Shown here: positions 19,073 to 46,109 of the stretch, in pieces
Layout of the letters: each line of letters begins with the position of its first letter
Position numbering within the stretch: the stretch's first letter is position 1
DNA from: Mycolicibacterium baixiangningiae
Lineage (GTDB): Bacteria; Actinomycetota; Actinomycetes; Mycobacteriales; Mycobacteriaceae
Direction: 5' to 3'
Assembly (NCBI RefSeq): GCF_016313185.1
Contig: NZ_CP066218.1
Coordinates: 3,968,001-4,032,000 of the forward strand
Length of the DNA: 64,000 nucleotides
Position numbers and translations under genes: made by a program
Notes under the pieces: model-generated
Seen by the model: only the letters and a program-made list of their open reading frames with translations
Database searches by the model: none
What the model was told of the DNA's origin: nothing

Positions 19073-19080
<8 letters not shown>

Positions 19081-20113
19081 TGCCCTGCAGCGCCTGCTGT
19101 CCGAACTGACCGAGCGCCAGAGAACCCTCGGGCAGCACCAGCTCACCGCTGTCCAGCCGCCGGCGCAGGTAGGCGAACGACTGCGCCGTCTGGGCGAACA
19201 GATGCTCACCGGCCCGCAGCGGCGGACGCGGCCTGTCGTCGCGGGGCGCGAACTGCGGCAGCGGTTTCACCTCGGTGTGGTAGTCGACGTTGAAGAACAG
19301 CGGAAATGAGTACCGCTCCTCTTTGACCTTGCGGACCCGGTGGCTGGTGGCGACGAACGTGCCGTTGGTCCACAGTTCCAGCATGTCGCCGACGTTGACG
19401 ACGAAGGTGCCGGGCAGCGGGGGCACGTCGATCCACTCCCCGGCGCCGTTGAGCACCTCGAGGCCCGGCGCGGTGGGTTTGAGCAGCGTGAAGCACTCGT
19501 AGTCGGTGTGTGCGCCGATGCCCATGTGGTCCTCGGCGTCCGGGTTGTACGGATAGTGCACCAGCCGCAGTTGGCTCGGTGTCTTCGTCGCATGCCGGGA
19601 GAACACGTCCGGGTCCTCCCCCAGCGCGATCGCGAACGCCGACAGAAGCCGCTGCCCCACCTCGAGCACCGCGGTGTAGTAGGCGGTGACGGATTCGGCG
19701 AACCCCGGCAGGTCGGGCCAGGTGTTCGGGCCCAGCATGGGGTTGCCCGCCAGGTAGTCGGGGTCGTCGGCCGGCAGGTCCAGCGCGGTGTCGAACGCCT
19801 CCTTCAGATCCGGCGTTCCTCCGTTCTCGACACCTTCTTCACCGATCGGCACGTAGCCGCGGTGACACCGCGACAGGCCGATGTAGGTGCGCATCTTCTC
19901 CTCCAGCGGCAGCGCGAAGAACTCCTTCGTCGCGGCCAGCATCCGGTCGAAGAGCGACTCGTCGATGCCCGATCCGCTGATGTAGAAGAACCCGACGTCA
20001 CGAGCCGCGGTGCCGAGGTCGGCCGCCACCCGTTCCTGTTCGGACCGGTCGCTCGACAGCAATCCACTGATGTCGACGACCGGTACGGATGTGAAAGACG
20101 TTGCACCGCTCAC
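19073..20113 (-). CDS. 2-oxoglutarate/Fe(II)-dependent oxygenase, isopenicillin N synthase superfamily
   Basis: 346-residue oxygenase. The N-terminal DIOX_N domain starts VPVVDISGLL; the C-terminal jelly roll has iron ligands in HTDYECFTLL (HxD) and TSHRV (distal His), and the cosubstrate-binding RYSFP (RxS). GTG at 20113 follows GGAGAAG and overlaps the previous stop by 4 bp. Known relatives include the ethylene-forming enzyme and the 2-ODD-C23 group, which hydroxylate arginine-type side chains and release guanidine. Co-regulation with a guanidine/urea carboxylase operon makes a guanidine-releasing hydroxylase attractive here, but this is inference. Last gene of the eight-gene operon. Confidence 0.9.
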
Positions 20114-20640
20114 AATTTCACTTCTCCTTCGCTTCGCTGAACATCCCAGCGCACGCCGTTGACGCGACAATGAGGACCGGAAACGCCGATGTCGAGGGCA
20201 CTCCACCCGCTGTCACCGACAGCGCCGATCACCACATGATCGGTGCAGGCCCAGCCGAATCGATCGCCGACGCGCACCAGCAGTCCCCGATCAGTACCCG
20301 ACGTGAGCGCCAGCGCCCAGCACGGTTCGACCGGACCGCTGTCGCGGACCCAGTGCTCGACATAGTCTGCGTGGACACCCTTTTCGACCAGCGTGTCACC
20401 GTCCCAGTGCACGGACCCCACGTCCGGGAACTCGCCGGGCGGCTGCAGATCGATGTCGCGGTGCCACTCGAACACGCTGTCACGCTGGGTGAGGACCCCC
20501 GCGAACCCGCGGGAGTCGACGTAGGCCGTATCGCCCTGAAGCCACAGCACGTCGGTGCCGGTGTCGCGCGACCCGTCGGCCTCGATGAGCAGGGTGCGCC
20601 GCCACAGGCCGGTACAGTCCTGCCTCACGACCGCGGTCAC
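20110..20640 (-). CDS. HRI1-like beta-barrel protein of unknown function
   Basis: 176-residue protein without signal or membrane segments. The pattern WRRTLLIEADGSRDTGTDVLWLQ, YVDSRGFAG, EWHRDIDLQPP, and GVHADYVEHW matches what I remember of the HRI1 beta-barrel family, which has bacterial members of unknown function; no catalytic residue is evident. The GTG start is chosen because it overlaps the upstream stop by 4 bp (GTGA). Tight coupling on both sides to the lactonase-like enzyme and the oxygenase suggests a role in the same pathway, perhaps binding a pathway intermediate. Family assignment is moderately sure, function open. Confidence 0.7.
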   Translation of the reverse strand: MTAVVRQDCTGLWRRTLLIEADGSRDTGTDVLWLQGDTAYVDSRGFAGVLTQRDSVFEWHRDIDLQPPGEFPDVGSVHWDGDTLVEKGVHADYVEHWVRDSGPVEPCWALALTSGTDRGLLVRVGDRFGWACTDHVVIGAVGDSGWSALDIGVSGPHCRVNGVRWDVQRSEGEVKL

Positions 20641-21470
20641 GACACCGGCCCGAACCGCTGGTGGAAGTGCTGGGTCAGCTCGGGCCATACGTGCGGGTCG
20701 TGGCCGGGGATGAGCGGGAAACCCTTGTCGGCGGCCAGCTTCTTGAGCCGGCGGATCGGTTCGACGGTCTCCTCGGGGTCGACGTCGATGAACCCGCCGA
20801 TCGCCCGTTCGTGCTCGATGTTCTCGGTCAGGTCGGCGGCGTCGAACGCGAACACGAACCCGTCGCCGCCGACAGAATGATCGAGTTGCACGACGAAGCT
20901 CTGGTGACCGGGGGTGTGACCGTAGGTCGGCACCGCGGTGATCCCGGGTGCGATCTCGACCTCCCCGTCAGCGAGCCGCCAGTCGATCCGCGGGTCGTCG
21001 AAGTCGACCCGGAAGATCGCGTGCTGCTCGGGCGCCGGATGATTCGACAGCCCGTACTCCAGCTCGCGGCGCTGGGCGTGCACCGGCACCCGGCCCGCGA
21101 ACAGCTTCAGCCCGCCCGCGTGGTCCGTGTGCAGGTGCGACACCGCGACGAGGTGGATGTCGTCGACGTCGACACCGATGTCGGCCAGTGACTCCTCTAT
21201 CGGTTCCCCCGGCCCCGGTAGCACCGGCTGATACTCCACGCTCGGGTAGAAGCGCCTGCGTAGGTACGGGTCCCGGATCAGCGCGGTGTTGAACCCGGTG
21301 TCCAGCAGTACCCAACCGCCGTCGGTCTGCAGCAGCACGCCGGGCACCGGTTCGCGCAGCTGCTCGGTGGCCGACGCGCCGTGGACGCTGACCGACTTCG
21401 GCAGATCCTCCCAGCCGAGCGTCAGCAGGATGACGCGGCGCACTCCACTGGGTCGCAGCAGTGTCGCCAT
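20637..21470 (-). CDS. Metallo-beta-lactamase-fold hydrolase, AHL-lactonase-like
   Basis: 277-residue MBL-fold enzyme. The dinuclear zinc motif is SHLHTDHAGG (HxHxDH), with later ligands in TYGHTPGH, FDAADLT and IPGHDPH. The order and spacing resemble AiiA/AttM-type lactonases, though the substrate may be any lactone, ester or cyclic amide. ATG at 21470 overlaps the binding-protein stop by one base (TGATG); the longer upstream frame is antisense to nothing real but lacks a ribosome site. In this operon it probably opens a ring or hydrolyses an ester of the imported compound. Confidence 0.88.
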   Translation of the reverse strand: MATLLRPSGVRRVILLTLGWEDLPKSVSVHGASATEQLREPVPGVLLQTDGGWVLLDTGFNTALIRDPYLRRRFYPSVEYQPVLPGPGEPIEESLADIGVDVDDIHLVAVSHLHTDHAGGLKLFAGRVPVHAQRRELEYGLSNHPAPEQHAIFRVDFDDPRIDWRLADGEVEIAPGITAVPTYGHTPGHQSFVVQLDHSVGGDGFVFAFDAADLTENIEHERAIGGFIDVDPEETVEPIRRLKKLAADKGFPLIPGHDPHVWPELTQHFHQRFGPVS

Positions 21471-23050
21471 CAGCCCGCCGACAGTTCGAAGAGCCGCAGC
21501 GAGTTCGGGTTCGTCACCACATGCGCCTGCTCCACGCCCTTCAGCCACGGCTGGGCCACCATGAAGTCGTCGACGTCGGCGATGTTGAGCCAGCATCCGG
21601 TCTCTTCCGCGGCCTTGGCCGCATCCGAGAACGCCTGCGCGTCATCGGTTTCCAGACCCCGGGCCAGCGCTTCGGTGATCGGCGGCGCGGAGCACCCCAG
21701 GTAGTTCAGGCCGCCGTCGGCATCCCAGGAGATGTGGCCCCACGTGTAGGGCGACGGCGCATCCGGCCACCCGGTGGAGGTCAGGATGTCCGGTGCGTTG
21801 GGGGCGTCGTTGCCGATCCAGCCGTAGATCTCCGAGGTCGGGTAGCTCTGCACCTTCGCGGTGAGGCCCGCGGCCGCGAGCTGCGTCTGGATCAGGTTGT
21901 TGATCAGCTGGTTGTCGGGGTTGGAGGAGTCGTAGCCGATGGTGACGGATTTCTGGTCGGCGGGCAGGCCCGCCGCGATCTCGGTGAGGAGCGACGGATC
22001 GTGGGTGACGTTCTGCGTGGCCAACTCCGGCGGCAGCATGTTCGGCGGATAGAGCTGCCCGGCTTTCTCACCACGTCCGAAGTACGTCTGCTTGACCAGC
22101 GCGTCGACATCGATCGCGGCGAGCAGGGCGGCGCGGTTCTTCGGGTCGGTCAGCATGCCGCGGCGCGGGTTGACGTAGAGGTAGTTCGACATCATCGTCG
22201 GCAACGAATAGTGCGCGAACTTGTCGTCGTTCATGTACGACTCCACCGCCGACGACGGCAGGTCGTGCAGGATCGCGGCGATCTGACCGTTGTTGAACTG
22301 CAGCTGCTGGGCGGACACATCTGTGATGACGGGGATCTCGACCTGCTCGAAATACGGCTTGTCACCCCAGTATTCGGGGTAGGCGGCCAGCGCGTACCGG
22401 GATCCGACCTCGGCGGCGGTGAGCGTATAGGGTCCGGTGCCGAGGTCGTGGGTGGTCAGGTAGGTCGCGGCATGATCGCCGCCGGCGTTGGCCTGCAGTC
22501 CGGTCGGGCTGACCATTCTCGGCCCGTACGGGCACGCGAGGTAGTCCAGGAACGCCGCGTTGGGTGCCTTCAGGGTGATCGTGACGTCGTGATCACCCTG
22601 GGTGGTGATCGATTCCACATCTTTCACCATGTACGCCGGGCCCTGGTCGACCGCCAGCCGGCGGTCGAAGGAGGCCTTGACCGCAGCAGAAGTGAAAGGT
22701 GTCCCGTCGTGGAACGTGACTCCCTCCCGCAACTTGAACGTGTACACGCGGTGATCGGGTGACTCCGTCCACTCCGTGGCCAGCAGCGGTTCGATCTCCG
22801 GTTTGTCGGTGCCGCCCTTGAACTGCAGCAGCCCCTCGTAGACGTTGGTCGTCAACAGCAGCCCCTGGCCGGCGTAGAAGATGTCCGGATCCGGCGGTTG
22901 GCCGGGATCCTGCAGGAACGACACGTGCAGCACCTTGTCGGTGGGCGCCGCGTTCGGCGCGCCGCCCTCGGAATCCGAGCCGCCACAGGCGCTCAGCGTC
23001 AGGGTGGCGACGGCCGCCACGGCGGCGGCGGTGGTGAGGCGGCGAATCAT
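21470..23050 (-). CDS. ABC transporter substrate-binding lipoprotein, family 5 (DppA/OppA-like)
   Basis: 526-residue extracellular binding protein. Signal peptide plus lipobox LTLSACGGS anchors it to the membrane. The SBP_bac_5 fold is shown by the order LATEWTESPDHRVYTFKLREGVTFHDG, GTGPYTL and YLYVNPRRGMLTDPKNRAAL. These proteins bind peptides, opines, nickel complexes or small cationic molecules. A good AAGGAG precedes the ATG, which overlaps the isochorismatase stop by 4 bp. Placement inside the operon, after the permeases and hydrolase, is unusual but the whole eight-gene set is tightly coupled. Confidence 0.93.
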   Translation of the reverse strand: MIRRLTTAAAVAAVATLTLSACGGSDSEGGAPNAAPTDKVLHVSFLQDPGQPPDPDIFYAGQGLLLTTNVYEGLLQFKGGTDKPEIEPLLATEWTESPDHRVYTFKLREGVTFHDGTPFTSAAVKASFDRRLAVDQGPAYMVKDVESITTQGDHDVTITLKAPNAAFLDYLACPYGPRMVSPTGLQANAGGDHAATYLTTHDLGTGPYTLTAAEVGSRYALAAYPEYWGDKPYFEQVEIPVITDVSAQQLQFNNGQIAAILHDLPSSAVESYMNDDKFAHYSLPTMMSNYLYVNPRRGMLTDPKNRAALLAAIDVDALVKQTYFGRGEKAGQLYPPNMLPPELATQNVTHDPSLLTEIAAGLPADQKSVTIGYDSSNPDNQLINNLIQTQLAAAGLTAKVQSYPTSEIYGWIGNDAPNAPDILTSTGWPDAPSPYTWGHISWDADGGLNYLGCSAPPITEALARGLETDDAQAFSDAAKAAEETGCWLNIADVDDFMVAQPWLKGVEQAHVVTNPNSLRLFELSAG

Positions 23051-23697
23051 CGGGCTGCTCCTTCGAGGACGAGTGCGCCGGCAGGTGCCAAGGCGCCGAA
23101 TGCGGCGAGGATCTCCTCGGTGGTGCGCAGAGCCCCGGTCTGCAGGTACTCCATCGCGTCGAGAGCGGCGTCATGGCGGTACTGCGACGATCCGCCGACG
23201 CAGTCGGTCACCACCCGTACGTAGTAGTCGCGCTGGTGGGCGTCGGCGAAGGTGTAGTGCACGCACACATCGGTCAGGCCGCCGACGAGGATGAGGGTGT
23301 CGGCCTTCACACCGCGCAGCACGATGTCGAATTCGGTGCCGATGAACCCGGAGTAGCGGCGTTTGACGATGTGGAATTCGCGGTCGTCACGCTCGGGCAA
23401 TGGGCGCAGCGACGGCTCCAGGTCGGTGCCCGCACGCCCCTCGACGCAGTGCACCCCTTCGGTGCCGTCGAGTTCGCGGCCGAAGTCGACACCACTGGGC
23501 CGGTGCACCTCCTGGAAGAACACGACCGGGATGTCGGCGGCGCGCGCGGCTGCCACCAACTGCTCTGCGCGCGCGACCCGTTCGGCGTGCCCCGGCATGT
23601 GGTCGATGCCCACCTCGTCGGCCGGCATCCCTCCGCCCTGTTGGATGTCGACGACCACGAGCACGGGGTTGCCCACGATGAGTGGTTGTTGGGGCAC
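23047..23697 (-). CDS. Isochorismatase-like cysteine hydrolase
   Basis: 216-residue cysteine hydrolase. The triad is readable: Asp in VLVVVDIQQGG, Lys in HIVKRRYSGF and the nucleophile Cys in GGLTDVCVHYT, with the family cis-peptide region preceding it. The family contains isochorismatase, nicotinamidase, N-carbamoylsarcosine amidase, biuret hydrolase and ureidoacrylate amidase. Location in an ABC import operon co-regulated with urea/guanidine carboxylase favours an amidase releasing a carbamoyl- or ureido-nitrogen compound, rather than siderophore synthesis. It begins one base after the permease stop and overlaps the binding-protein ATG. Confidence 0.9.
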   Translation of the reverse strand: MPQQPLIVGNPVLVVVDIQQGGGMPADEVGIDHMPGHAERVARAEQLVAAARAADIPVVFFQEVHRPSGVDFGRELDGTEGVHCVEGRAGTDLEPSLRPLPERDDREFHIVKRRYSGFIGTEFDIVLRGVKADTLILVGGLTDVCVHYTFADAHQRDYYVRVVTDCVGGSSQYRHDAALDAMEYLQTGALRTTEEILAAFGALAPAGALVLEGAAR

Positions 23698-24702
23698 TTA
23701 TCCTCCTCTGACGGTGATACGTGGGTCGGCGGCCGCCTGCAGGAGGTCCACCACGGTGTTGATGAAGACGTAGAGCGCGCCGAGCATCAGCGTCACGCCG
23801 GCGATGGCGGGGAAATCGGCGACCGGGATGCTCTGGGCGATGTACTGGCCGATGCCCGGCCAGCCGAACACCTGCTCGACGACGAGGACCCCGGAGAACA
23901 TCAGGCCGATCTGGAGGCCGGTCATGGACAGCGCCGCACCGATCGAGTTGCGCAGCACGTGGCCGACCATGATCCGGCCCTCCGAAAGTCCCTTGGCCCG
24001 TGCGGTTCTGGCGTAGTCGCTGTCGGTGTCGCCCAACAGGCTCGATCGCAGCACCCGGCCGATGGCCACCGCAGGCCCGAGCGCGATCACCACGGCGGGC
24101 AGGAGCAGGTGGTGGAACGCGTCGGCGACGACGTCGAACCGGGCGTGCAGCAACCCGTCGACGGTCAGCAGGCCGGTCGGACCGGACGGCGAATTCGCGA
24201 TCGCGGTGCGGCCGTTGGCCGGAACCCAACCGAGCTGCTGGTAGAAGACGATGATGCCGATGATGCCGAGCAGGAACATCGGCGCCGACGAACCGGTGAA
24301 CAGCACGGCCCGCAGCACCGCCGAGCCTCGCCACTTCAGCGTCGTGCTGAACGCCAGCAGCGCGGCGAGTACGAGCGCGATGACCATACCGAACACCGCC
24401 AGCTCCAGTGTGGCGGGCAGGAAGTCGCCGAGGTCGGACGCGACGGGGTGGCGGGTGCGGTACGAGGTGCCGAGATCGCCGGTCACCGCACCGGTCAGGT
24501 AGTTCCAGAACTGCACGAGGATCGGTTCGTTGAGGCCGAGCGCCTCGCGGCGGGCGGCGACGGCCTCCTGGGAGGCCTGGGCACCGAGCTGTGCTTTGAC
24601 GGGATCGAGCGGCGAGATGTGGGCGAGGACGAACATCACACCCGTCAGGGCGACGAGGATCGCGAGCATGGCGGCGATCCGGGTCGTCACGAAGGTCCTC
24701 AT
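23698..24702 (-). CDS. ABC transporter permease, DppB/OppB type
   Basis: 334-residue permease with six membrane segments. The N-terminal long periplasmic loop contains the DppB mark NEPILVQFWNYLTGAVTGDLGTSY; the EAA loop is YARTARAKGLSEGRIMVGHVLRNS. It forms the channel with the DppC-type permease encoded 15 bp upstream and the fused ATPase. Stop lies directly next to the isochorismatase start. Confidence 0.94.
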   Translation of the reverse strand: MRTFVTTRIAAMLAILVALTGVMFVLAHISPLDPVKAQLGAQASQEAVAARREALGLNEPILVQFWNYLTGAVTGDLGTSYRTRHPVASDLGDFLPATLELAVFGMVIALVLAALLAFSTTLKWRGSAVLRAVLFTGSSAPMFLLGIIGIIVFYQQLGWVPANGRTAIANSPSGPTGLLTVDGLLHARFDVVADAFHHLLLPAVVIALGPAVAIGRVLRSSLLGDTDSDYARTARAKGLSEGRIMVGHVLRNSIGAALSMTGLQIGLMFSGVLVVEQVFGWPGIGQYIAQSIPVADFPAIAGVTLMLGALYVFINTVVDLLQAAADPRITVRGG

Positions 24703-24717
24703 CGGCCCCCTCTGCTC

Positions 24718-25584
24718 CTACTTGGTCTTCATCAGGTTGCGCAGGCTGTCGCCTGCGATGTTGCCGACCAGCGCGAGCACCAGGACACCGACTCCGGGCA
24801 TCACCGGAATCCACCACTGCTGCAGGAAATAACTGAGGTTGCGGGCCGAGTCGGCACCGAGCTCCGGCGCCGGTGCGGACTGTCCGAGCCCGAGGAACGA
24901 CAGCGCGGCGAGGGTGAGGATCAGCGTGCCGATGTCGAGGCTGGCGGCAACCATCGCGTTGGGCACGGCACCGGGGAGCAGGTGGCGGCGGGCCAGCCGG
25001 ATGGGGCCGACGCCGGCGAGTTTGGCGGCCTCGATGTGTGGTCTCGCGGCCAGGCGCGCCACCTCACCGCGCACCAACCGGGCGTAGAACGGCCACCACA
25101 CGATGGACACCGCGATCAGCGTGTGCAGGAAACCCGGTCCGAGGGCGGCGACCACGGCAATCGCGAGCACCGGTGCGGGTAGCGACAGGAACGCGTCGGT
25201 GATCCGCATCAACAGCGAGTCGATCCAGCCGCCTGCCGTTCCCGCGATCAGCCCGATCAGGCCGCCGATGAACAGGCCGAGGGCCACCACGGCCAGCGCC
25301 GCGAACCAGCTCGAGCGCGCCCCGTAGAGCACCCGGGACAGGACGTCGCGGCCGATGCTGTCGGTGCCGAGGAGGAATCCGTCAACGCCGGGCGCCTGCA
25401 GCGGCATCCCCACCGGGAGCAGCGGGTCGTAGGGCGCCAGCACCGGGACCGCTACCGCGGCCAGGGTCACGACGATGATGAGCGAGAAGCCAATCCAGTT
25501 CACCACCGCCGAGCGGGACTGCGGCATGGCGAGTACCCGACGCCGTGCCCGCACCATGGCGGGCGCGGGCAGAGCCACCGCCAT
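24718..25584 (-). CDS. ABC transporter permease, DppC/OppC type
   Basis: 288-residue permease. It begins with an N-terminal helix (VVNWIGFSLIIVVTLAAVAV), then GTDSIGRDVLSRVLYGARSS typical of DppC, and the EAA loop HIEAAKLAGVGPIRLARRHLLP. The ATG overlaps the fused ATPase stop by one base (TGATG). Partner of the DppB-type permease. Confidence 0.94.
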   Translation of the reverse strand: MAVALPAPAMVRARRRVLAMPQSRSAVVNWIGFSLIIVVTLAAVAVPVLAPYDPLLPVGMPLQAPGVDGFLLGTDSIGRDVLSRVLYGARSSWFAALAVVALGLFIGGLIGLIAGTAGGWIDSLLMRITDAFLSLPAPVLAIAVVAALGPGFLHTLIAVSIVWWPFYARLVRGEVARLAARPHIEAAKLAGVGPIRLARRHLLPGAVPNAMVAASLDIGTLILTLAALSFLGLGQSAPAPELGADSARNLSYFLQQWWIPVMPGVGVLVLALVGNIAGDSLRNLMKTK

Positions 25585-27581
25585 CAGCCGGCCTTCCGCT
25601 CGATGCAGGCGACCTGGTGGGGATTGCCCGGGAAGCCCTCGAGGCGGACGTCCAGCCCGGTGTCGTCGCAGGCATCGATGGCCAGCGGGCACCGCGGGTG
25701 GAAGGCGCATCCGGTGGGCGGCGACAACGGGCTCGCCGGCTCGCCGGCCAGCGGCCGCGGTTCGCGGCCCAGATCGGGGATGGAGTCGACGAGCGCCTGG
25801 GTGTATGGATGCGCGGGCTGGGCGATCACCCGCTCGGCGGGTCCGATCTCCACGATGCGCCCGAGGTACATCACCGCGATCCGGTCGGCGACCACCCGGG
25901 CCACCGACAGGTCATGGGTCACGAACACGACGGACATGTCGAGGCTGCGCCGCAGGTCGCCGATCAGGTTGAGCACCGAGGCCGCCAGTGACACGTCCAG
26001 CGCGCTGGTCGGCTCGTCGCACAGCAGCACCGAGGGCGGCACCACCGTCGCGCGGGCGAGCGAAACACGTTGCCGCTGGCCTCCGGACAGCTGACCGGCA
26101 CGCGATTTCGCGACCTCGGCGGGCAGCCCGACCCGTTCCAGCACCTCGGCGACGCGTTCGCGGCGGCGGGCCCGTGACAGACCGGTGCTCCGCAGTCGCT
26201 CGGCGATCAACTCGCCCACCGACAGCCACGGTGTCAGCGACGCGCCCGCATCCTGGAACACCATCTGCGGCCGCTGACCTCCCGCGAGCTCGACTGAACC
26301 TGTAGAAGGCGGCTCCAGGCCCGCGATAACGCGGAGGAGCGTCGACTTGCCCGACCCGCTCTCACCCACCAGCGCGACCGACTCACCGTGCCCGACACGG
26401 AGCGAAACTCCGCGCAGCGCATGCAGTTTGCCGTCGCCGTCGGTCGATCGGTCGAGCCAACGTCGGGCCACCGAGAAGGTCTTGGTGACGTCGCGCAGTA
26501 CCACCGAGGGCGGCATCTCGGTCCGGTCCCCGGTCATGGCCGGGAACATCTCGCTGGTGTTGCTCACCGCGGCCCCCAACTTCTCGGTGACCTCGGGGAA
26601 CGGGCGGATGCACGCGCTGACTCGTTCGGCCGCCACCGCGATCGGATCCGGTGGCGCGGCATTGCATTCCTCGGTGGACAACGCGCACCGGGGTACGAAC
26701 GCGCATCCGGCAAGCGGATTCACCGCGCTCGGCACCGCGCCGGCGAGCGCTGCCAGCGGACGGTCCCGCTCGGTGTCGAGCGTCAGCCGGGACCGCAACA
26801 ACCCATGGGTATAGGGGTGAGCCGGGGCCGCCAGCACTGCCGCACTCGGGCCGATCTCGGCGATCCGGCCGGCGTAGAGCACCGCGATGCGGTCGGCGAT
26901 CTGCGCGGCCACCCCGAGGTCGTGGGTGATCAGCACGATGCTGCAACCGATTTCGTCCCGCAGGCGCCGCAGGAGGCGCAGCACCTGGGCCTGGACGGTG
27001 ACGTCGAGCGCGGTGGTCGGTTCGTCGGCGACGATGAGGTCTGGGTCACCGGCGATCGCGATCGCGATCATCACGCGCTGGCGCAGTCCGCCGGACAGTT
27101 CGTGCGGGAACGCCCGCATCCGCCGCCCGGGCTCAGGGATGCCGACGGCGGTCAGCAGGCGCAGCGCCTCGTCCTCGCTGCCCGCGGCCTCGGCCACCTG
27201 TTTGCCGATGCGCATGGTCGGGTTCAGCGACGTCATCGGGTCCTGGAACACCGCGCCGAGGTCGAGGCGGCGCACTTTGCGCAGCGCCTTCGCATCACCG
27301 CGGACCATGTCGGAGCCGGCCACCCGAACCGTACCGGTCGTGGTGGCGTTGTCCGGCAGCAGGCCGAGCAGGCTGAAGCCCAGAACACTTTTGCCCGAAC
27401 CGGATTCGCCGACCAGCCCCAGGATCTCACCGGGTGCGATGGACAGGGAGACCCCGCGCAGGGCGTGGATGGCACGCCCGTTACGGCGAAACGTCACCCG
27501 CAGGTCACCGACAGCCGCGATCGGGTCCCGCACCGGCGGCACCGCGGCGGGTGCGTCGGCTTCGGAGACGGCGATGCCCAT
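25584..27581 (-). CDS. Fused double ATPase (DppD-DppF) of the peptide-type ABC transporter
   Basis: 665-residue protein with two complete ATP-binding domains. First: GESGSGKSVLG, LSGGLRQRVMIA, LIVADEPTTALD. Second, from about residue 350: GESGSGKSTLL, LSGGQRQRVSLARA, VLLCDEPTSALD. Each half ends in the Cys-rich oligopeptide/dipeptide C-terminal region (CAFVPRCALS; CAFHPRCPLA). It energises uptake through the two permeases below it. AGGAG precedes the ATG. First gene of the operon; the promoter region upstream carries two palindromic operators shared with the carboxylase operon. Confidence 0.94.
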   Translation of the reverse strand: MGIAVSEADAPAAVPPVRDPIAAVGDLRVTFRRNGRAIHALRGVSLSIAPGEILGLVGESGSGKSVLGFSLLGLLPDNATTTGTVRVAGSDMVRGDAKALRKVRRLDLGAVFQDPMTSLNPTMRIGKQVAEAAGSEDEALRLLTAVGIPEPGRRMRAFPHELSGGLRQRVMIAIAIAGDPDLIVADEPTTALDVTVQAQVLRLLRRLRDEIGCSIVLITHDLGVAAQIADRIAVLYAGRIAEIGPSAAVLAAPAHPYTHGLLRSRLTLDTERDRPLAALAGAVPSAVNPLAGCAFVPRCALSTEECNAAPPDPIAVAAERVSACIRPFPEVTEKLGAAVSNTSEMFPAMTGDRTEMPPSVVLRDVTKTFSVARRWLDRSTDGDGKLHALRGVSLRVGHGESVALVGESGSGKSTLLRVIAGLEPPSTGSVELAGGQRPQMVFQDAGASLTPWLSVGELIAERLRSTGLSRARRRERVAEVLERVGLPAEVAKSRAGQLSGGQRQRVSLARATVVPPSVLLCDEPTSALDVSLAASVLNLIGDLRRSLDMSVVFVTHDLSVARVVADRIAVMYLGRIVEIGPAERVIAQPAHPYTQALVDSIPDLGREPRPLAGEPASPLSPPTGCAFHPRCPLAIDACDDTGLDVRLEGFPGNPHQVACIERKAG

Positions 27582-27759: not shown

Positions 27760-27779
27760 TTTCTGTCGTGTGACAGAAA
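27760..27779. promoter_or_regulatory. TetR-type operator 2 (TTTCTGTC-N4-GACAGAAA)
   Basis: Perfect 8-bp arms around GTGT, 46 bp upstream of the tetR ATG, so well placed for autoregulation. The core matches the other three sites except that one CTGTCA arm reads CTGTCG. An 11-mer AGGTAACTGAT lies 13 bp before it (27737-27747) and recurs at 35442-35452. Confidence 0.75.
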
Positions 27780-27824
27780 CGCCGGCGTGTACCGATTGAC
27801 CGGTTCGTGGTCCACCATGGAGCC

Positions 27825-28529: not shown

Positions 28530-30217
28530 CGCCGCCAGTCCCCGTACAACGAGATGTCCTCACCGGCCTGCCAGGCGTCGAGCGCGCACCCGAATCCGAC
28601 GACCTCCGTGCCGTCCGACAGCGTGACCCGGCCCAGCATCATCGGCGCCGGCAGCGCCGCGAGGAAGTCCCCGAGCATCGCCGTCCCGAGCAGCCACAGT
28701 TCACCGCCGATCGCCGTACCGGTTTCGGCTCCCACCCGCACCAGACCCGGTTTGGGTGGGGTGGTGTCCAGGCGCGCCAGCCGGTACAGCGGTGCGGTCA
28801 CCGCCCGGCCGAGCCACCGGGCCCCGCGCTCGTCGAGTTGCCAGGCCAGCGGTTGGTCACGCAGGTGTGCCCCCACCACGAGGATCGGTGTGGCCGCCAG
28901 ACCCGCGTGGATCGGCCACGGTGTTTGTTGCACAACGGGATTCGTGGCATCGAGTGTGGTGACACGGCGCGCGAGGTCGAGTGCCACCGCATCGGCACCG
29001 CTGCGCGCGACGAGTGAGACGCCGAACTGCGCCCCGTCGACGGTTCCGGACGGTACGGCGACCGCGCACATGTCCATGAGGTTGCAGAAGTTCGTGTAGG
29101 TGCCCAGTCGGGAGTTGACCCCGACGGGATCAGCCTCCACCTCGGCGATCGTCGGGTGTTCGGTGGTGGTCGGGATGAGCAGCGCATCGCAGTCGCCGAG
29201 TTCGGCCATCGCCACCGCGGTGAGTTCGGTGAGGCGTACCCGGTCGCGGAGCAGCCGGGTCGCCGGCACCGTACCGGCCGCCGAGATGATCGCGCCGACG
29301 GTCGGATCGACCTCGTCACGGTGGGTGTCGACGAAATCGCCGACCGCTTCGTGTCGCTCGGCCACCAGGCCGCCGTCGTACAGCAGTCGCGCCGCCTCGA
29401 GGAACGGGTTCAGATCGATCTCGCGCACCGTCACCCCCTGGCTCTCGAGGCGGACCCTGGCCGCAGCGAATGCACGCCGCCAGGCCGGCGAGAGACCGGG
29501 CAGTTCGCGGGGCACGGCCACGAGGGGTTCGGCCGGCGCGGCGAGCGGGGCATCGGGTGGGAACGGTCGCGTCCCAGGACCGCCCGCCATCACGCCCATG
29601 GCGGCGTCGGCGGTGTCCACATCGCGGGCGAGGACGGTGACGCAGTCATAGGAACGGCAGGCCGGCACCACACCGTCGGTGGGCACCACACCGTAGGTGG
29701 GTTTGATGCCGACGATGCCCTGTAGGGCCGCGGGCACCCGCCCGGATCCGGCGGTGTCGGTGCCGATGGCGACGTCGACGATGCCGAGTGCCACCGCGAC
29801 CGCCGATCCGGAACTCGATCCGCCCGAGATGTGGTCGGGGCGCTGGGCGTTGCGCACGGCGCCGTGTGGGCTGCGCGTGCCGACCAGCCCGGTCGCGAAC
29901 TGATCGAGGTTGGTCGCGCCGATCACCACCGCACCCGCCGCGCGCAGCCGCGCGACCACCGGCGCGTCGGTATCGGCCACCGCGGTCGCATAGCCCGGAC
30001 ATGCCGCCGTGGTGGGCAGGCCCGCGATGTCCACGTTGTTCTTCACCGCGACGGTCAGCCCGGCCAGTGGGAGCTCATCCCCCGCGGCGACGGCGGCGTC
30101 GACGGCCTCGGCGTCGGCCATCGCCTCAGCGAAGGGACGCACAAAGATCCAGATCTCCGGCCGCGCGACGTTCTCGAGCGTGGTGTAGGCGGCGCGGACG
30201 CGCTCGACGGCCGTCAT
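28484..30217 (-). CDS. atzF: Allophanate hydrolase (AtzF type)
   Basis: 577-residue amidase-signature enzyme that splits allophanate into ammonia and CO2. The Ser-cisSer-Lys triad is in VAVKNNVD (Lys) and HISGGSSSGSAVAVALG (Ser pair), followed by GTDTAGSGRVPAA. The extra C-terminal domain of AtzF (from about residue 450: LGTAMLGDFLAALPAPMMLGRVTLSDGTEVVGFG) is present, so the protein is full length. The ATG overlaps the carboxylase stop by 4 bp. Last gene of the carboxylase operon. Confidence 0.95.
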   Translation of the reverse strand: MTAVERVRAAYTTLENVARPEIWIFVRPFAEAMADAEAVDAAVAAGDELPLAGLTVAVKNNVDIAGLPTTAACPGYATAVADTDAPVVARLRAAGAVVIGATNLDQFATGLVGTRSPHGAVRNAQRPDHISGGSSSGSAVAVALGIVDVAIGTDTAGSGRVPAALQGIVGIKPTYGVVPTDGVVPACRSYDCVTVLARDVDTADAAMGVMAGGPGTRPFPPDAPLAAPAEPLVAVPRELPGLSPAWRRAFAAARVRLESQGVTVREIDLNPFLEAARLLYDGGLVAERHEAVGDFVDTHRDEVDPTVGAIISAAGTVPATRLLRDRVRLTELTAVAMAELGDCDALLIPTTTEHPTIAEVEADPVGVNSRLGTYTNFCNLMDMCAVAVPSGTVDGAQFGVSLVARSGADAVALDLARRVTTLDATNPVVQQTPWPIHAGLAATPILVVGAHLRDQPLAWQLDERGARWLGRAVTAPLYRLARLDTTPPKPGLVRVGAETGTAIGGELWLLGTAMLGDFLAALPAPMMLGRVTLSDGTEVVGFGCALDAWQAGEDISLYGDWRRYLSGVTGSALSERV

Positions 30218-33200
30218 GCCGGGATCTCCGCGACGTCCTGCTCCGCGCCGAGCACGACCAGGGGCGTTCCTGGTTCCACCTGGTGGCCCGCCTCGACGAG
30301 CACATGGGTCACCACACCGTCCGCCGGTGCGGTCACGACGGTCTCCATCTTCATCGCCTCCAATGCCAGCAGTGCCTGTCCGGCCGCCACGCGCTCCCCC
30401 ACGGCCACATCGACTTTCCACACATTCGACGAGAACGGCGCATCCACCCGCTGGGCGCCGTCGTCGAGGACGAGGTCGGCGGTGTCGGCGGTGGCCTGCG
30501 ACTGCGCACGCTCGGCGCGGTCGAACTCCCCTGCCGCCGCCCACGCCGAGCGCTCCGCGGAGAACGCCGCGCTCTGGCGGGCGCGGAACTCCGCGATGGA
30601 GTCGGCGTTTCGTGCGAGGAAGCGCTCGTGCTCGTCGAGGGAGAACGTGCCGTCGGTGATCTCGACGGTGCCGCGGCCCGCGGCGAGATCGGCGCGCAGG
30701 TCGAGCAGTTCCTCGGCGGACACCGGATACCAGGAGATGCGGTCGAAGAACCGCAGCAGCCACGGGCTGCCGGGTTCGAACGGTGCGGTGTGGCGGTAGG
30801 TGCTCCATACCTGTGTCGTCCGGCCGACGAACTGGTAGCCGCCGGGACCTTCCATCCCGTAGATGCACAGATAGGCGCCGCCGATCCCGACGGAGTTCTC
30901 CGCGGTCCAGGTGCGGGCGGGGTTGTACTTCGTGGTCACCAGGCGGTGGCGTGGATCGAGCGGAGTCGCCACCGGCGCACCGAGATACACGTCACCGAGT
31001 CCGAGGGTCAGGTATTCGGCGGCGAACACGGTGTCGGCGACATCGGCCTGGGTGGCCAGGCCGTTGACGCGCCGGATGAACTCGATGTTCGACGGGCACC
31101 AGGGGGCGTCGTCGCGCACTCCCGACATGTAGCGTGCGATCGCCTCGCGGGTCGCGGGGTCGTCCCAACTCAGCGGGAGCCGCACCGACCGGCTCGGCAC
31201 CACGAGGTCGGAGGTGGCGGGCAGATCGTCTTCGAGTTCGGTCAGCAGGCCGAGCAGTCGGTCGATCGCCAGTTGCTGCGGGTCGACATGGATCTGGAGC
31301 GAGCGGATACCCGGGGTGAGGTCGACGATCCCGGCAGCTCGCGCATCGGCCAGCCGGGTGTGCAGCGCGTGCACTCGGGCGCGCAACGCCAGATCGAGCA
31401 CCATCTCGCCGTACTCGACCAGCACGTTGTCGTCACCGCTGCGGCGGTAGGTGACCGACGGTTGCCCGTCGCGCCGGGCCAGCACACCGTCGTCGCCGTC
31501 GCCGCCGCTGGTGAGCACCGTCGGTGCGGCGGGCCGACGCTCGCCGCCCACCTCCGTCCGCGCCGGCGCGTCGGCGGCGCGAACCGGCACGAACCGCACG
31601 GTGTCACCGGGGCGCAGCTGCCCGAGCTTCCACCGGTCGGCGGCCACGACGGTCACCGGGCAGACGAAGCCGCCGAGACTGGGTCCGTCGGGTCCCAGCA
31701 GGATCGGGGTGTCACCGGTGAAGTCGAGTGCGCCAACCGAATACGGGGTGTCGTGGATGTTCGACGGATGGAGTCCGGCGTCACCGCCGTCGGCCCGCGC
31801 CCACCGCGGCCTGGGCCCTTCGAGGCGTACTCCGGTTCGTGCGGAGTTGAAGTGCACGCGGTATTCCGCGGCGAAGAGGGTGTCGATGTCCTCGCGGGTG
31901 AAGAACTCCGGCGCCCCGTGTGGTCCCTCGGTCACGGCCAGTTCCCAGTGCGAGACCAGGGCGGGGCGCATGTCGGGGGTGACCGCTGCGCGCCCGACCG
32001 CGCCGGTGACCGGGCGCGCGGCCCGCAGGACGTCACCGACCACCAGCGGCCGCCCCCCGTGGCCGCCGAATCTCCCGAGCGTGAACGTCGACGCGCTGCC
32101 CAGGTAGGCGGGTATGTCGAAACCGCCGGCGACGAGGACGTAGGTGCGTAGACCCACCGTCTCCGCCGCGCCGACGTCGAGCACTCCCCCGGCCGGGATC
32201 TCGACAGGCTCCCACATCGGGACGGGCCGGCCGTCGACGGTGACCAGGCACTCAGCGCCGGTGACGCACACGGTGGTGGGGTGGCTGGCACGCAGCGCCG
32301 GTCCGGAGGCGGTGCACTCGAGTCCCGCTGCGCCGTCGGGGTTGCCGAGCGCGCGGTTACCGAGCCGGAAGGACAGATCGTCCATCGGACCGCTCGGCGG
32401 GACACCGATGTGCCACAGTCCGATTCGGCCGGGCAGGTCCTGAACCGTGGTCAGCAGCCCCGGTCGCTCGACGGTGATGCGGGCCCGCGGGTCGGTGACG
32501 TCGGCCAACGTCGCGGTGCTGTGCCGCGCGGTGATGACGTCACGATGGGTCACCGCCGCCTGCAGTGCGCCGATGTTGGTCTCGATACCGTGCAGCACAG
32601 TGTGTCCCAGCGCATCGCCCAGACGCCCGAACGCCTGCTCACGTGCGGGTCCGGTGGCGATCACCTTGGCCAGCAGCGGATCGTAGAACGACGACACCTC
32701 CGTTCCGTCCTCGACCCAGGTGTCCACCCGCACATCGTCGGGGAAGGACACCGCGGTGACGGTTCCGGTGCTCGGCCGGTGATCGCGCGAGGGGTCCTCG
32801 GCGTAGAGCCGGGCCTCGACCGCATGACCTTTCACCGGCACCGCACCCGTCGGCAAGTACGGTGCCAACATGTCTGTTTCGCCACAGCCGAGGCGGAACA
32901 TCCACGCGGCGAGGTCGATTCCGGTGACAGCCTCGGTCACCGGGTGTTCGACCTGGAGCCGGGCGTTGACCTCGAGGAACGACGCCTGCTCTCGGACCGG
33001 ATCGTAGACGAACTCGACGGTGCCCGCCGACCGGTAGTCCACCGAGGCGGCCAGCGCGCGTGACGATTCGTGCAGCAGCGCACGGACGGGATCGGGCAGC
33101 GCCGGCGCCGGGGCCTCCTCGAGCACCTTCTGGTTGCGCCGCTGCAGGGAGCAGTCGCGGTCGCCCAGTGAGACGACGTGGCCTCGTCCGTCGCCGAAGA

Positions 33201-33831
33201 TCTGCACCTCGACGTGGCGGGCGGTTTCGACGAAGCGCTCCACGAACACGCCGGCCGTGCCGAAGCTGCGCTCGGCCAGGCGCGCGACCCGCTCGAAGGC
33301 CGCGCGGAGTTCGATGGCGTTGTGGCACACCTGCATGCCGATACCGCCTCCTCCCCCGGTCGCCTTGAGCATCACCGGATAGCCGATGCCGTCCGCGGCG
33401 TGCAGCGCATCGGCGGCGTCGGCGAGCAGGTCCGAGCCCGGGAAGACCGGGACCCCGGCTGCCCGGGCCGCCGCCCTGGCGGTGTGCTTGGTGCCGAATA
33501 CGCGCAGCTGGTCGGGTGTCGGACCCACGAAGACCATCCCCGCGGTCTCCACCGCAGCAGCGAAATCGCCGTCTTCCGAAAGGAATCCGTACCCGGGGTG
33601 GATCATGTCCGCGCCGGTTTCCCGCGCGGCGTCCAGGATGGCGTCGATCCGCAGATAACTGTCGGCCGGCGTGGACGGCCCGAGGCGGACGGCGTGGTCG
33701 GCGAGGCGCACGTGCGGGGCGCCGCGATCGGCGTCGGAGAACACCGCCACGGTGCGCAACCCGAGCCGCTGCGCGGACCGGACGAGCCGTACCGCGATCT
33801 CGCCGCGGTTGGCGATCAGCGCAGTCGTCAC
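30214..33831 (-). CDS. Urea/guanidine carboxylase (biotin-dependent)
   Basis: 1205-residue ATP-dependent biotin enzyme. Biotin carboxylase occupies about 1-450 (LIANRGEIAVRLVRSA; GGGGIGMQV; EVNARLQVEHPVTE). A KipA/allophanate-hydrolase-subunit-2-like domain follows (GRIGLWHIGVPPSGPMDD), then a KipI-like domain, and a C-terminal biotinyl domain with ALEAMKMET. The product of urea carboxylation is allophanate. Proteins of this type located beside two DUF1989 proteins have been shown in other bacteria to carboxylate guanidine, giving carboxyguanidine, so guanidine is the likelier substrate here. GTG start overlaps the DUF1989 gene stop by 4 bp. Confidence 0.95.
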   Translation of the reverse strand: MTTALIANRGEIAVRLVRSAQRLGLRTVAVFSDADRGAPHVRLADHAVRLGPSTPADSYLRIDAILDAARETGADMIHPGYGFLSEDGDFAAAVETAGMVFVGPTPDQLRVFGTKHTARAAARAAGVPVFPGSDLLADAADALHAADGIGYPVMLKATGGGGGIGMQVCHNAIELRAAFERVARLAERSFGTAGVFVERFVETARHVEVQIFGDGRGHVVSLGDRDCSLQRRNQKVLEEAPAPALPDPVRALLHESSRALAASVDYRSAGTVEFVYDPVREQASFLEVNARLQVEHPVTEAVTGIDLAAWMFRLGCGETDMLAPYLPTGAVPVKGHAVEARLYAEDPSRDHRPSTGTVTAVSFPDDVRVDTWVEDGTEVSSFYDPLLAKVIATGPAREQAFGRLGDALGHTVLHGIETNIGALQAAVTHRDVITARHSTATLADVTDPRARITVERPGLLTTVQDLPGRIGLWHIGVPPSGPMDDLSFRLGNRALGNPDGAAGLECTASGPALRASHPTTVCVTGAECLVTVDGRPVPMWEPVEIPAGGVLDVGAAETVGLRTYVLVAGGFDIPAYLGSASTFTLGRFGGHGGRPLVVGDVLRAARPVTGAVGRAAVTPDMRPALVSHWELAVTEGPHGAPEFFTREDIDTLFAAEYRVHFNSARTGVRLEGPRPRWARADGGDAGLHPSNIHDTPYSVGALDFTGDTPILLGPDGPSLGGFVCPVTVVAADRWKLGQLRPGDTVRFVPVRAADAPARTEVGGERRPAAPTVLTSGGDGDDGVLARRDGQPSVTYRRSGDDNVLVEYGEMVLDLALRARVHALHTRLADARAAGIVDLTPGIRSLQIHVDPQQLAIDRLLGLLTELEDDLPATSDLVVPSRSVRLPLSWDDPATREAIARYMSGVRDDAPWCPSNIEFIRRVNGLATQADVADTVFAAEYLTLGLGDVYLGAPVATPLDPRHRLVTTKYNPARTWTAENSVGIGGAYLCIYGMEGPGGYQFVGRTTQVWSTYRHTAPFEPGSPWLLRFFDRISWYPVSAEELLDLRADLAAGRGTVEITDGTFSLDEHERFLARNADSIAEFRARQSAAFSAERSAWAAAGEFDRAERAQSQATADTADLVLDDGAQRVDAPFSSNVWKVDVAVGERVAAGQALLALEAMKMETVVTAPADGVVTHVLVEAGHQVEPGTPLVVLGAEQDVAEIPA

Positions 33832-34469
33832 GGGCGGGTCACGATCATCCGGACCGGTGTGGGATTGAAGGCGTTGCACGGGTTGTTGATCTGCGGGCAG
33901 TTCGAGACGACCACGAGCGTGTCGATGTCGGCGCGCAATGCGATGCGCTTACCGGGCCCGGACAGCCCGTCGACGATGCCCAGCGCGCCGTCGGGGTCGA
34001 CCGGCACGTTCATGAACCAGTTGATGTTGCTGGAGAGATCCCGGGCGCCGAGGCCGTGGCGGGCGCCCTCGATCAGAAAGTTCTCCATGCAGCCGTGCTG
34101 TTCGCGGGTGTGCTGCCCGTAGCGCAGCGTGTTGGACTCTTTCGAACACGCGCCGCCCAGGGTGTCGTGTATGCCCACCTCGTCGGCGACGACGGTCATC
34201 AGCGCCGCACCGGTGTCGGCCCGCAGCACCGACCCGGTGGTCAGCACGATACGCCCCTGGCGCGCAATCGTTTCCGAGGCGGAGTAGCGGACCGCGGTGT
34301 CGGCGGCGGAGTAGAGCAGGCAGTCGACGGCCTGGTTGCCGTCGAGGTCGACGATCGTCAGCACGTCACCGGCGGTGACGACCGCCGACCACGGCGCCCT
34401 GGCCGCGACGGTCTCGTCGAGCACGACGGTGCCGGGGACAAGAGGCTGGGCGTCGGCGGTGGCGGTCAC
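33828..34469 (-). CDS. DUF1989 protein, UAAP2 / carboxyguanidine deiminase subunit
   Basis: 213-residue DUF1989 protein, historically called urea amidolyase-associated protein 2. Conserved parts are LTIVDLDGNQAVDCLLYSA, GSVLRADTGAALMTVVADEVG, CSKESNTLRYG and NWFMNVPVDPDGALG. Work on guanidine degradation assigned the paired DUF1989 proteins as CgdA/CgdB, which deiminate carboxyguanidine to allophanate. GTG start overlaps the upstream paralogue stop by 4 bp. Assignment as one deiminase subunit follows from the family and gene order. Confidence 0.9.
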   Translation of the reverse strand: MTATADAQPLVPGTVVLDETVAARAPWSAVVTAGDVLTIVDLDGNQAVDCLLYSAADTAVRYSASETIARQGRIVLTTGSVLRADTGAALMTVVADEVGIHDTLGGACSKESNTLRYGQHTREQHGCMENFLIEGARHGLGARDLSSNINWFMNVPVDPDGALGIVDGLSGPGKRIALRADIDTLVVVSNCPQINNPCNAFNPTPVRMIVTRP

Positions 34470-35350
34470 AGCGCTCCTCGGGCGGCGAGATCGGCGTCGG
34501 TGTTGGCGATGGCCTGGCGGTGCTCGGGCCCGAGCTCACCGACCAGATCGCCGGCGGTGAGGCGCGCGAGATCGGTTGCGGCGGGCCAGGCGTGGATCTG
34601 CAGCGGCGAGCAGGTGAACTGCGGGCGGGGGTCCATGGGGTGGGCGGTATTGGCGAGCAGGACGACGGCGTCCACGTGCAGCAGCAGGTCGACGGTCGTG
34701 CCCGGTCCTGCCGAGCCCTGCCACTGCAGGACTCCGTCGCCGTCGACCCGCACCCGCTGGAAGAAGGACACCGAGGGCACCAGGTCACGTTGTCCCATAC
34801 CGTTTTTCAGCGCGGCGAGCAACAGGAGCTCGCGGCCCGCCGGCGCCGGGGACTCGGGTGCACCGGCTCCGTACCTGGCCTCGTTGCCGGCCCGCGTCGT
34901 CGTTCCGGCCAGTGCGTCGTGGTGTCCGGAGGTGTCGCCGACCACGGTCGCGAGCACCCGCCCGAACCCGCTCAGCAGCGGATGGCCGGACCCGAGGTAG
35001 GCCTGCCACGGCACCTTGACGGTGTCGGCGACGTTGAGCCGCTCATGCGTCGCGTCGGCGCGGTGGAGTAGGAGGTGCGCACACGCGTCGCCGTCCACGT
35101 CGGTCATGCGGATACGGGTGCCGCGGGCCAGCACCGCGGTGGTGTACCCGCCGGGCGCCACGGTCTCCGACCACACCAGGCGCTCGGCCGGGACACCGTC
35201 GGGCACGGTCGGGCTGGTCGAGGCGGGGACGTGGCGCATGTGTTCGGCGGTGCGGCCGTGCTGGGCGCGGGCGTGTGCCCGGGCGCCGGCGGTGGTGGCG
35301 GTCGACGATGTCGCTCCACTGCCGTCGGACGTGCGCAGATCGCTGGTCAA
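34466..35350 (-). CDS. DUF1989 protein, UAAP1 / carboxyguanidine deiminase subunit
   Basis: 294-residue DUF1989 protein, about 50 residues longer at the N-terminus than usual; the extra part is Ala/Thr/Ser-rich and may be unstructured. Family signatures are VAPGGYTTAVLARGTRIRMTDVDGDACAHLLLH and NGMGQRDLVPSVSFFQRV. TTG at 35350 is preferred: GGGAG lies 5 bases ahead and it leaves the palindromic operator at 35394 outside the coding region, whereas a start at 35458 would put it inside. An ATG further in (MRHVPAS) is an alternative. First gene of the carboxylase operon. Confidence 0.87.
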   Translation of the reverse strand: MTSDLRTSDGSGATSSTATTAGARAHARAQHGRTAEHMRHVPASTSPTVPDGVPAERLVWSETVAPGGYTTAVLARGTRIRMTDVDGDACAHLLLHRADATHERLNVADTVKVPWQAYLGSGHPLLSGFGRVLATVVGDTSGHHDALAGTTTRAGNEARYGAGAPESPAPAGRELLLLAALKNGMGQRDLVPSVSFFQRVRVDGDGVLQWQGSAGPGTTVDLLLHVDAVVLLANTAHPMDPRPQFTCSPLQIHAWPAATDLARLTAGDLVGELGPEHRQAIANTDADLAARGAL

Positions 35351-35393
35351 AGGTGCTCCCGGGGTCGCGGCGCCGACGCCGACGGCGGCATTT

Positions 35394-35407
35394 CTGTCAC
35401 CTGACAG
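35394..35407. promoter_or_regulatory. TetR-type operator 3 (CTGTCACCTGACAG)
   Basis: Same 6-bp arms as operator 1 with CC spacer, 43 bp upstream of the UAAP1 TTG start. Flanked by TTT on the left and TTTTCGCG on the right, like the other sites. Confidence 0.75.
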
Positions 35408-35488
35408 TTTTCGCGTCGGCTGACCGCCGGTGGTTGCCGCGAGGTAACTGATCTTCATCGACGCGTTAAGAACGCAGTGTCGATGTGT

Positions 35489-35502
35489 CTGTCATGTGAC
35501 AG
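35489..35502. promoter_or_regulatory. TetR-type operator 4 (CTGTCATGTGACAG)
   Basis: Same arms with TG spacer, 37 bp before the YciI-like gene and 95 bp (centre to centre) from operator 3. Links the short plus-strand gene to the same control. Confidence 0.75.
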
Positions 35503-35539
35503 GTTTCGGGTCCCCCGCTCGGTCGGCTACCCTTCGCCG

Positions 35540-35815
35540 GTGTTCCATGTGCTGACGCTGACCTACCTGCAACCGCTCGACGTCATCGACCAGAGCCGGC
35601 CCGCCCACCTCGAATGGCTCGCCGGTGAGGTCGAAGCCGGCCGGATCCTGCTCGCCGGCCGGGTGGAGAGCCAGACCGGCGCGGTGCTCATCACCGGCGA
35701 TCTCACCGCCGACGAGGCCGATGCGCTCGCGGCGTCAGACCCCTACACGCAGGCCGCAGTGGTGTCCTACGAGCGCACATCGTTCAACGGCGCATTCCGC
35801 GCGCCCGGCCTCTAG
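35540..35815 (+). CDS. YciI-like protein
   Basis: 91-residue YciI-type ferredoxin-like fold protein ([54 protein letters not shown]). The His in RPAHLEW and Asp in SDPY correspond to the putative active-site pair of the family. GTG at 35540 gives the conserved N-terminus; it is downstream of operator 4, so it probably belongs to the nitrogen regulon. Enzymatic role unknown; a small-molecule lyase or isomerase role has been suggested for relatives. Followed 110 bp later by adhC. Confidence 0.85.
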
Positions 35816-46086: not shown

Positions 46087-46109
46087 TGACGTTCTCCGAT
46101 CAGTAGGTG

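Follow-up and report, generated by a model that had tools for sequence, protein, structure and literature searches.

A predicted methylguanidine-catabolic locus with a TetR-type regulator and paired palindromes in Mycolicibacterium baixiangningiae

A 64,000-nucleotide stretch of the Mycolicibacterium baixiangningiae chromosome (hereafter the window) contains two neighbouring minus-strand operons, one encoding an ATP-binding cassette (ABC) importer, two hydrolases, a small protein and a 2-oxoglutarate (2OG)-dependent oxygenase, and the other a carboxylase with its accessory enzymes. At a probability of roughly 0.78, these operons form a methylguanidine-catabolic locus under TetR control, in which guanidine would serve as a nitrogen source through the carboxylase route. 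Homology of the oxygenase and the small protein to MgdH and MgdL, together with a guanidine-type Asp in the carboxylase, makes demethylation to guanidine followed by the carboxylase route the most likely pathway.

In Vreelandella boliviensis, the 2OG oxygenase MgdH and the lyase MgdL demethylate methylguanidine, and MgdL requires D49 and R51, according to the main text of PMC12508155 (October 2025). The V. boliviensis locus was recovered via a primer sequence and compared with the window proteins. The window oxygenase is 60.9% identical to MgdH over 335 amino acids (aa; E value 3e-149), in agreement with the sequence-only reading that had related it to guanidine-releasing enzymes, and the small protein is 29.8% identical to MgdL over 141 aa (E value 5e-10). 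MgdL D49 and R51 correspond to D58 and R60 of the open reading frame starting at 20688, each of which is kept in 92 of 93 aligned sequences, window included. The same protein had been labelled HRI1-like, a label dropped here since its score against PF16815 is 13.7 bits for a cut-off of 27; judged from its sequence, it belongs with MgdL and not with HRI1. A profile of 20 members of its family matched no solved structure up to an E value of 10, and a fold predicted from two sequences, with a mean predicted local distance difference test score (pLDDT) of 36, was not used.

The 92 loci fetched from relatives comprise 32 other family-search matches (L036-L067) and 60 of 114 further genus matches (L068-L127), hand-chosen. 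The oxygenase and MgdL homologue genes are adjacent in all 89 of these loci with a counted MgdL match; the other three are L064 (28% match, no oxygenase match), L066 (26% match beside an oxygenase) and L067 (weak original match). Ten further loci were considered (L196-L205, nine from other genera and L205 from the same genus): the pair occurs in six, in reversed order in L198, L202 and L203, and no oxygenase match was found in L200, L201 and L204, of which L200 and L204 are short contigs.

The carboxylase scores above the TIGR02712 cut-off and has biotin carboxylase, carboxyltransferase and biotin carrier domains, and the two DUF1989 subunits and the allophanate hydrolase are above the cut-offs of TIGR03424, TIGR03425 and TIGR02713. 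In an alignment with the K. lactis urea amidolyase, D719 of the carboxylase falls at N1330, which we take to be the guanidine/urea specificity site. At the specificity site, Asp corresponds to guanidine and Asn to urea in the relevant passages of PMC12186494; urea was considered as a substrate, and the Asp speaks against it. The V. boliviensis carboxylase also has this Asp, as do 50 of 51 carboxylase loci of relatives, the motif not being found in L048, at a contig end. The guanidine carboxylase/CgdAB/AtzF operon proposed from the letters alone is thus borne out by residue and families alike. In a locus of the same study from genus g28 (L049, 4043-9305), the guanidine-type carboxylase consists of the carboxyltransferase only (656 aa), so that its biotin carboxylase part would need to come from elsewhere; next after it come MgdL, MgdH and a sodium:solute symporter.

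Except for the HRI1 label, the gene families named by the sequence-only reading were all recovered by Pfam and NCBIfam searches at the positions given below. The import operon runs from 27581 down to 19073 on the minus strand, in the transcription order DppDF ATPase, DppC, DppB, isochorismatase-fold protein, binding protein, lactonase-fold protein, small protein and 2OG oxygenase, and is read as a single operon, a reading supported by starts nested in stop codons. The second operon, also on the minus strand, is CgdA-CgdB-carboxylase-AtzF, from about 35242 down to 28484. The TetR gene is divergent from the import operon and the YciI gene from the carboxylase operon. The features are as follows.

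19073..20113, strand -: 2OG/Fe(II) oxygenase, MgdH (methylguanidine hydroxylase) homologue (DIOX_N and 2OG-FeII_Oxy; start read from the sequence)
20110..20640, strand -: MgdL (N-(hydroxymethyl)guanidine lyase) homologue (match to MgdL; start about 20640, read from the sequence)
20637..21470, strand -: metallo-beta-lactamase-fold hydrolase, AHL-lactonase-like (PF00753)
21470..23050, strand -: solute-binding protein family 5 (Dpp/Nik type), SBP_bac_5 (PF00496)
23047..23697, strand -: isochorismatase-fold cysteine hydrolase (PF00857)
23698..24702, strand -: ABC permease, DppB type (PF00528, PF19300)
24718..25590, strand -: ABC permease, DppC type (PF00528; start read from the sequence)
25584..27581, strand -: fused ABC ATPase, DppDF type (two ABC_tran and two oligo_HPY stretches)
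27669..27682, no strand: putative operator palindrome CTGTCAGGTGACAG (exact match)
27763..27776, no strand: putative operator palindrome CTGTCGTGTGACAG (exact match, 94 bp from 27669)
27807..28529, strand +: TetR-family regulator (PF00440)
28484..30217, strand -: allophanate hydrolase AtzF (TIGR02713, above cut-off)
30214..33879, strand -: guanidine carboxylase, annotated as urea carboxylase (TIGR02712, above cut-off)
33828..34469, strand -: DUF1989 protein UAAP2, CgdB (TIGR03424, 321 bits for a cut-off of 285)
34466..35242, strand -: DUF1989 protein UAAP1, CgdA (TIGR03425, 296 bits for a cut-off of 206; start read from the sequence)
35394..35407, no strand: putative operator palindrome CTGTCACCTGACAG (exact match)
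35489..35502, no strand: putative operator palindrome CTGTCATGTGACAG (exact match, 95 bp from 35394)
35540..35815, strand +: YciI-like protein (PF03795; start about 35540, read from the sequence)

The two operons and the TetR and YciI genes had been described as joined by one palindrome family, and exact sites confirm this. The palindrome CTGTCNNNTGACAG occurs exactly at 27669, 27763, 35394 and 35489, as one pair before DppDF and TetR and another before CgdA and YciI; with CgdA starting at about 35242 and YciI at about 35540, the second pair would be intergenic. The whole genome (6.18 Mb) has six exact occurrences on either strand, four of them in the locus. The other two, on contig 1 at 1078991 and 4560857, lie outside the window and both are without full symmetry. 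Matches with up to three mismatches are not enriched in the window (158 for a shuffle mean of 181, with 90 of 100 shuffles reaching 158), so that only the exact sites carry weight. Among the fetched loci, 66 have the importer operon; in 50 of these one or more exact sites lie in the 500 bp upstream of the DppDF match, and in 41 a pair. Of the 48 close pairs counted across the 92 loci, 46 have a spacing of 94-96 bp and the other two of 106 and 107 bp, about nine and ten helical turns. A TetR match is present in 64 of the 66 importer loci and a YciI match in 25.

Between the exact pairs of relatives, the motif GnTAC-n6-GnnAC was found in 39 of 41 DppDF regions and in seven of seven CgdA regions (0.3 and 0.0 in shuffles), and AC-n9-AC in 41 of 41 and seven of seven (13.9 and 2.5 in shuffles), although these regions are mutually related sequences and the shuffles therefore overstate significance. 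AC-n9-AC is given as the GlnR core motif of M. smegmatis in passages of PMC3662644. The fuller M. smegmatis consensus, GnnAC-n6-GnAAC, occurs in none of the 41 DppDF regions and in all seven CgdA regions. This arrangement suggests a TetR repressor that would bind two sites on the same helix face enclosing a nitrogen-control site.

A one-mismatch copy of the palindrome at 46107-46120 lies between the ATPase and binding-protein genes of a second importer operon (45094-48337; binding protein, ATPase and permease by reading, of another ABC type), about 10 kb off, and could be due to chance or mark a further regulon member. Genes neighbouring the locus were read as SerB-, CtaD-, FecB-, AdhC- and NrdF-like, only the AdhC-like one having been family-tested.

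The co-occurrence proposed for other genomes was also found. An MgdL homologue was detected in 120 of 396 genus genomes (E value 0.001), and a strong CgdB match (E value below 1e-84; 159 genomes, 160 being above the family cut-off) is present in 110 of these 120 compared with 49 of the 276 MgdL-negative genomes (Fisher p 3e-46, kinship ignored). MgdL and CgdB are at most 20 kb apart in 35 of the 103 genomes having both among the matches listed. Wider searches found an MgdL homologue in 33 of 301 genomes of the family, 14 of 298 of the order and 12 of 394 of the class; the three sets of genomes partly coincide, very weak matches are counted for the class, and up to eight (order) or six (class) first-look candidates were scored per genome. 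Where the MgdL homologue occurs without the importer (23 loci, 21 of them outside the genus), the fetched stretch also contains genes for CgdA, CgdB or the carboxylase in 14. The importer operon is also present in L202, from a second family within the order, and a 4-kb contig of this family (L204) brings together matches to CgdA, CgdB, MgdL, the lactonase-fold protein, a permease and a binding protein.

Plasmid-borne relatives of the oxygenase (225 records) were examined for their surroundings in five cases. On a Paraburkholderia plasmid the homologue lies among guanidine-pathway genes with a lactonase-fold gene nearby, and on an Acinetobacter plasmid beside AtzF, ABC and SMR genes, while the Klebsiella, Kozakia and Sulfitobacter plasmid genes have no visible guanidine-gene surroundings. 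Plasmid records gave no match to the MgdL query, and only one weak match to the window small protein, from Streptomyces, with unrelated surroundings. Other proteins adjoin the oxygenase in some of these places. In Paraburkholderia sprentiae (L128, 9093-9980), the MgdH homologue (59%) comes after a TIM-barrel protein resembling xylose isomerase (PF01261), a possible unrelated hemiaminal lyase, and MgdL is not among the genes listed; in Kozakia (L130) a sugar phosphate isomerase/epimerase precedes the oxygenase. In Acinetobacter (L131, 9017-9898) the gene next after the MgdH homologue (48%) encodes a protein of 293 aa that matches no Pfam family up to an E value of 1; the SMR transporter gene comes after it, and the group lies between the ABC and AtzF genes.

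Several observations weigh against a methylguanidine-catabolic, TetR-controlled locus. Identity to MgdL is low, at about 30%, and a 29-residue inner stretch and the C-terminal part of MgdL have no counterpart in the window protein. Ten of the 120 MgdL-positive genomes are without strong CgdB (G052, G316, G370, G424, G453, G474, G492, G503, G539 and G637; nine if the weaker match of G637 is counted), which indicates that the MgdH/MgdL pair can exist without the carboxylase route. In L197 the lyase homologue shares its stretch with a carboxylase cluster and no oxygenase match was found, and no carboxylase gene is listed near the Klebsiella and Kozakia plasmid oxygenases (51%), for which the gene tables are incomplete. 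A guanidine riboswitch was sought, and no Rfam match at gathering score was obtained in the window. As for the operators, an exact palindrome is missing from the stretch in 16 of the 66 importer loci (one of them, L070, being incomplete); seven of the eight such loci that were scanned show sites matching 10 of the 12 fixed bases. Finally, the joint arrangement of the two operons is not universal, the carboxylase operon being located elsewhere in many relatives, where it usually comes with a TetR paralogue of its own and a degenerate pair of operators. This was seen in 20 carboxylase operons (L143-L162) from genomes in which the two operons are separated or on different contigs: 18 of the 20 stretches contain a TetR gene (46-59% identical), and 16 a site pair (at least 10 of the 12 fixed bases, in a scan of about 430 bp upstream of CgdA that had no shuffled control), with a spacing of 74 bp in 13, 75 bp in two and 71 bp in one, 74-75 bp being approximately seven helical turns.

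In the favoured scheme, TetR would keep both operons off at the paired palindromes until an inducer, probably methylguanidine, guanidine or an imported precursor, is present, and GlnR would probably activate them under nitrogen shortage. The Dpp-type importer would take in a compound yielding methylguanidine, whose release may be helped by the lactonase-fold and isochorismatase-fold hydrolases, the weakest step of the scheme. By homology to proven enzymes, the MgdH homologue would hydroxylate the methyl group of methylguanidine to give N-(hydroxymethyl)guanidine, and the MgdL homologue would split this hemiaminal into guanidine and formaldehyde. On the same grounds, the carboxylase would convert guanidine to carboxyguanidine, CgdA/CgdB would deiminate the latter to allophanate, and AtzF would convert allophanate to CO2 and ammonia. 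The YciI protein may take some part in this pathway.

Dpp/Opp family domains are present in the binding protein, both permeases and the ATPase. The lactonase-fold protein is far under the NCBIfam lactonase cut-offs, and the best equivalogs of the isochorismatase-fold protein, BiuH and RutB, are both far under theirs. Plasmid relatives of the latter (11 records, nine being 49-59% identical over 87-91% of the query) adjoin several importer kinds, one record being unannotated, which does not fix the substrate; those of the lactonase-fold protein (six records, 32-36%) include one in the Paraburkholderia guanidine cluster and one in a Streptomyces cluster of a different kind. On a Streptomyces plasmid (L136, 7989-11415), the genes around a 59% isochorismatase-fold relative encode an ABC importer, two proteins of the phosphotriesterase family and a RidA protein.

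In the window no gene lies between the lactonase-fold gene and the MgdL homologue, a place where the 66 importer loci of relatives have an allantoinase-family match in 44 cases, a racemase match in 36 and an allantoicase match in 43 (all three in 35, none in 22). The examples in L039 match TIGR03178 (above cut-off), PF01177 and PF03561, and its allantoicase misses the NCBIfam equivalog cut-off by 7 bits. Of 66 genomes searched, 56 have allantoicase repeats, among them that of the window, where they lie outside the window. The L039 operon copy is 37-41% identical to 17 allantoicase copies from elsewhere in genomes and 47-94% identical to other operon copies; because operon copies diverge from those elsewhere, the operon allantoicase likely has a separate specificity, as far as can be judged from sequence divergence.

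Our guess at the cargo of the importer is a creatinine-oxidation or guanidino-hydantoin compound. Methylguanidine arises from creatinine via creatol, as stated in passages of PMC3775425 and PMC11970497, and the main text of PMC12508155 describes its sources as otherwise elusive, abiotic formation from creatinine excepted. It is possible, though doubtful, that the import operon serves specifically for the use of a cyclic guanidino compound (such as a creatol-type creatinine-oxidation product or a guanidino-hydantoin), whose ring would be opened and cleaved to methylguanidine and glyoxylate by the lactonase-fold and isochorismatase-fold enzymes and, in relatives, by the divergent allantoinase, hydantoin-racemase and allantoicase paralogues, with MgdH/MgdL and the carboxylase acting afterwards.

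Other readings of the same genes were weighed against methylguanidine catabolism. The oxygenase could hydroxylate a larger guanidino compound, such as arginine, homoarginine or guanidinoacetate, which the importer itself would carry and whose hemiaminal the MgdL homologue would split. The ethylene-forming enzyme and plant homoarginine hydroxylases hydroxylate compounds of this kind and share the superfamily of the window oxygenase, whose best PDB match (9ovh, 246 bits) is a chain named ethylene-forming enzyme; moreover, some plasmid relatives lie near glyoxylate/hydroxypyruvate reductase genes, which fits conversion of guanidinoacetate to glyoxylate. The high identity to MgdH, in a comparison that left out arginine-active enzymes, nevertheless makes this reading unlikely.

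The allantoin-type genes of relatives might instead point to a ureide operon, with ureidoglycolate lyase activity for the MgdL homologue and urea as the substrate of the carboxylase. Ureidoglycolate and the substrate of MgdL are both hemiaminals, and an AllA-type ureidoglycolate lyase was not found in 65 of the 66 genomes searched. However, the window and a third of the importer loci have none of the three allantoin-type genes, the window's genome has its allantoicase elsewhere, 17 such copies are 37-41% identical to the L039 operon copy, and the carboxylase is of the guanidine type, so that a ureide operon appears quite improbable. Still less credit can be given to a peptide importer with hitch-hiking hydrolases and guanidine genes as mere neighbours: SBP_bac_5 and the Dpp permeases and ATPases are peptide/nickel importer families, but the operon recurs with the MgdH/MgdL pair even where the carboxylase operon is elsewhere, and both are also found in the second family of the order.

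Compared with systems already described, the locus shares with the V. boliviensis operon, as presented in the main text of PMC12508155, homologues of MgdH and MgdL, a guanidine carboxylase, CgdA/CgdB, AtzF and an ABC importer. That operon is a single one with two guanidine riboswitches and three ABC genes, whereas the window has two operons, no Rfam match, a TetR gene with paired palindromes, a Dpp-type importer and additional lactonase-fold, isochorismatase-fold and YciI genes. The sequence-only reading did not know the eight-gene set as a described system; homologues of its oxygenase/small-protein pair were published in 2025, and its importer and hydrolase genes differ from the published operon. 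All four enzymes of the guanidine carboxylase pathway (Gca/CgdAB/AtzF), with Asp and not Asn, are shared with the system outlined in PMC12186494, from which the window differs in having no riboswitch found and in probably being fed by demethylation. The AC-n9-AC motif is common to the M. smegmatis GlnR regulon, in which passages of PMC3662644 list the urea amidolyase MSMEG_2187 as GlnR-activated, but here it is known from the letters only and lies between two TetR-type operators. The inserted genes in relatives resemble those of allantoin degradation (AllB, racemase, allantoicase), from which the locus differs by their absence in the window and by the divergence of the operon allantoicase. A literature search in which most subscription journals were outside scope found no paper joining guanidine carboxylase, methylguanidine and TetR in Mycobacterium, and a term search of the main text of PMC12508155 returned no word beginning actinobacteria, Mycob or Rhodococcus. 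Overall, the predicted core pathway is already known in another host group, and its putative control and feeding module differ from the published operon.

Homologues of MgdH and MgdL are linked here with an importer and hydrolases, in many genomes within a single actinobacterial genus as well as in some from other genera and families. For guanidine metabolism in which a riboswitch was sought and not found, the locus offers a candidate protein regulator, a TetR with paired operators round a GlnR-like site. The main text of the 2025 paper (PMC12508155) leaves open where methylguanidine comes from in nature; if the route from a cyclic guanidino compound is true, it would explain the origin of methylguanidine for such bacteria. 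The locus would also assign a function to genes annotated as "hypothetical", "lactonase" or "allantoicase" in such operons.

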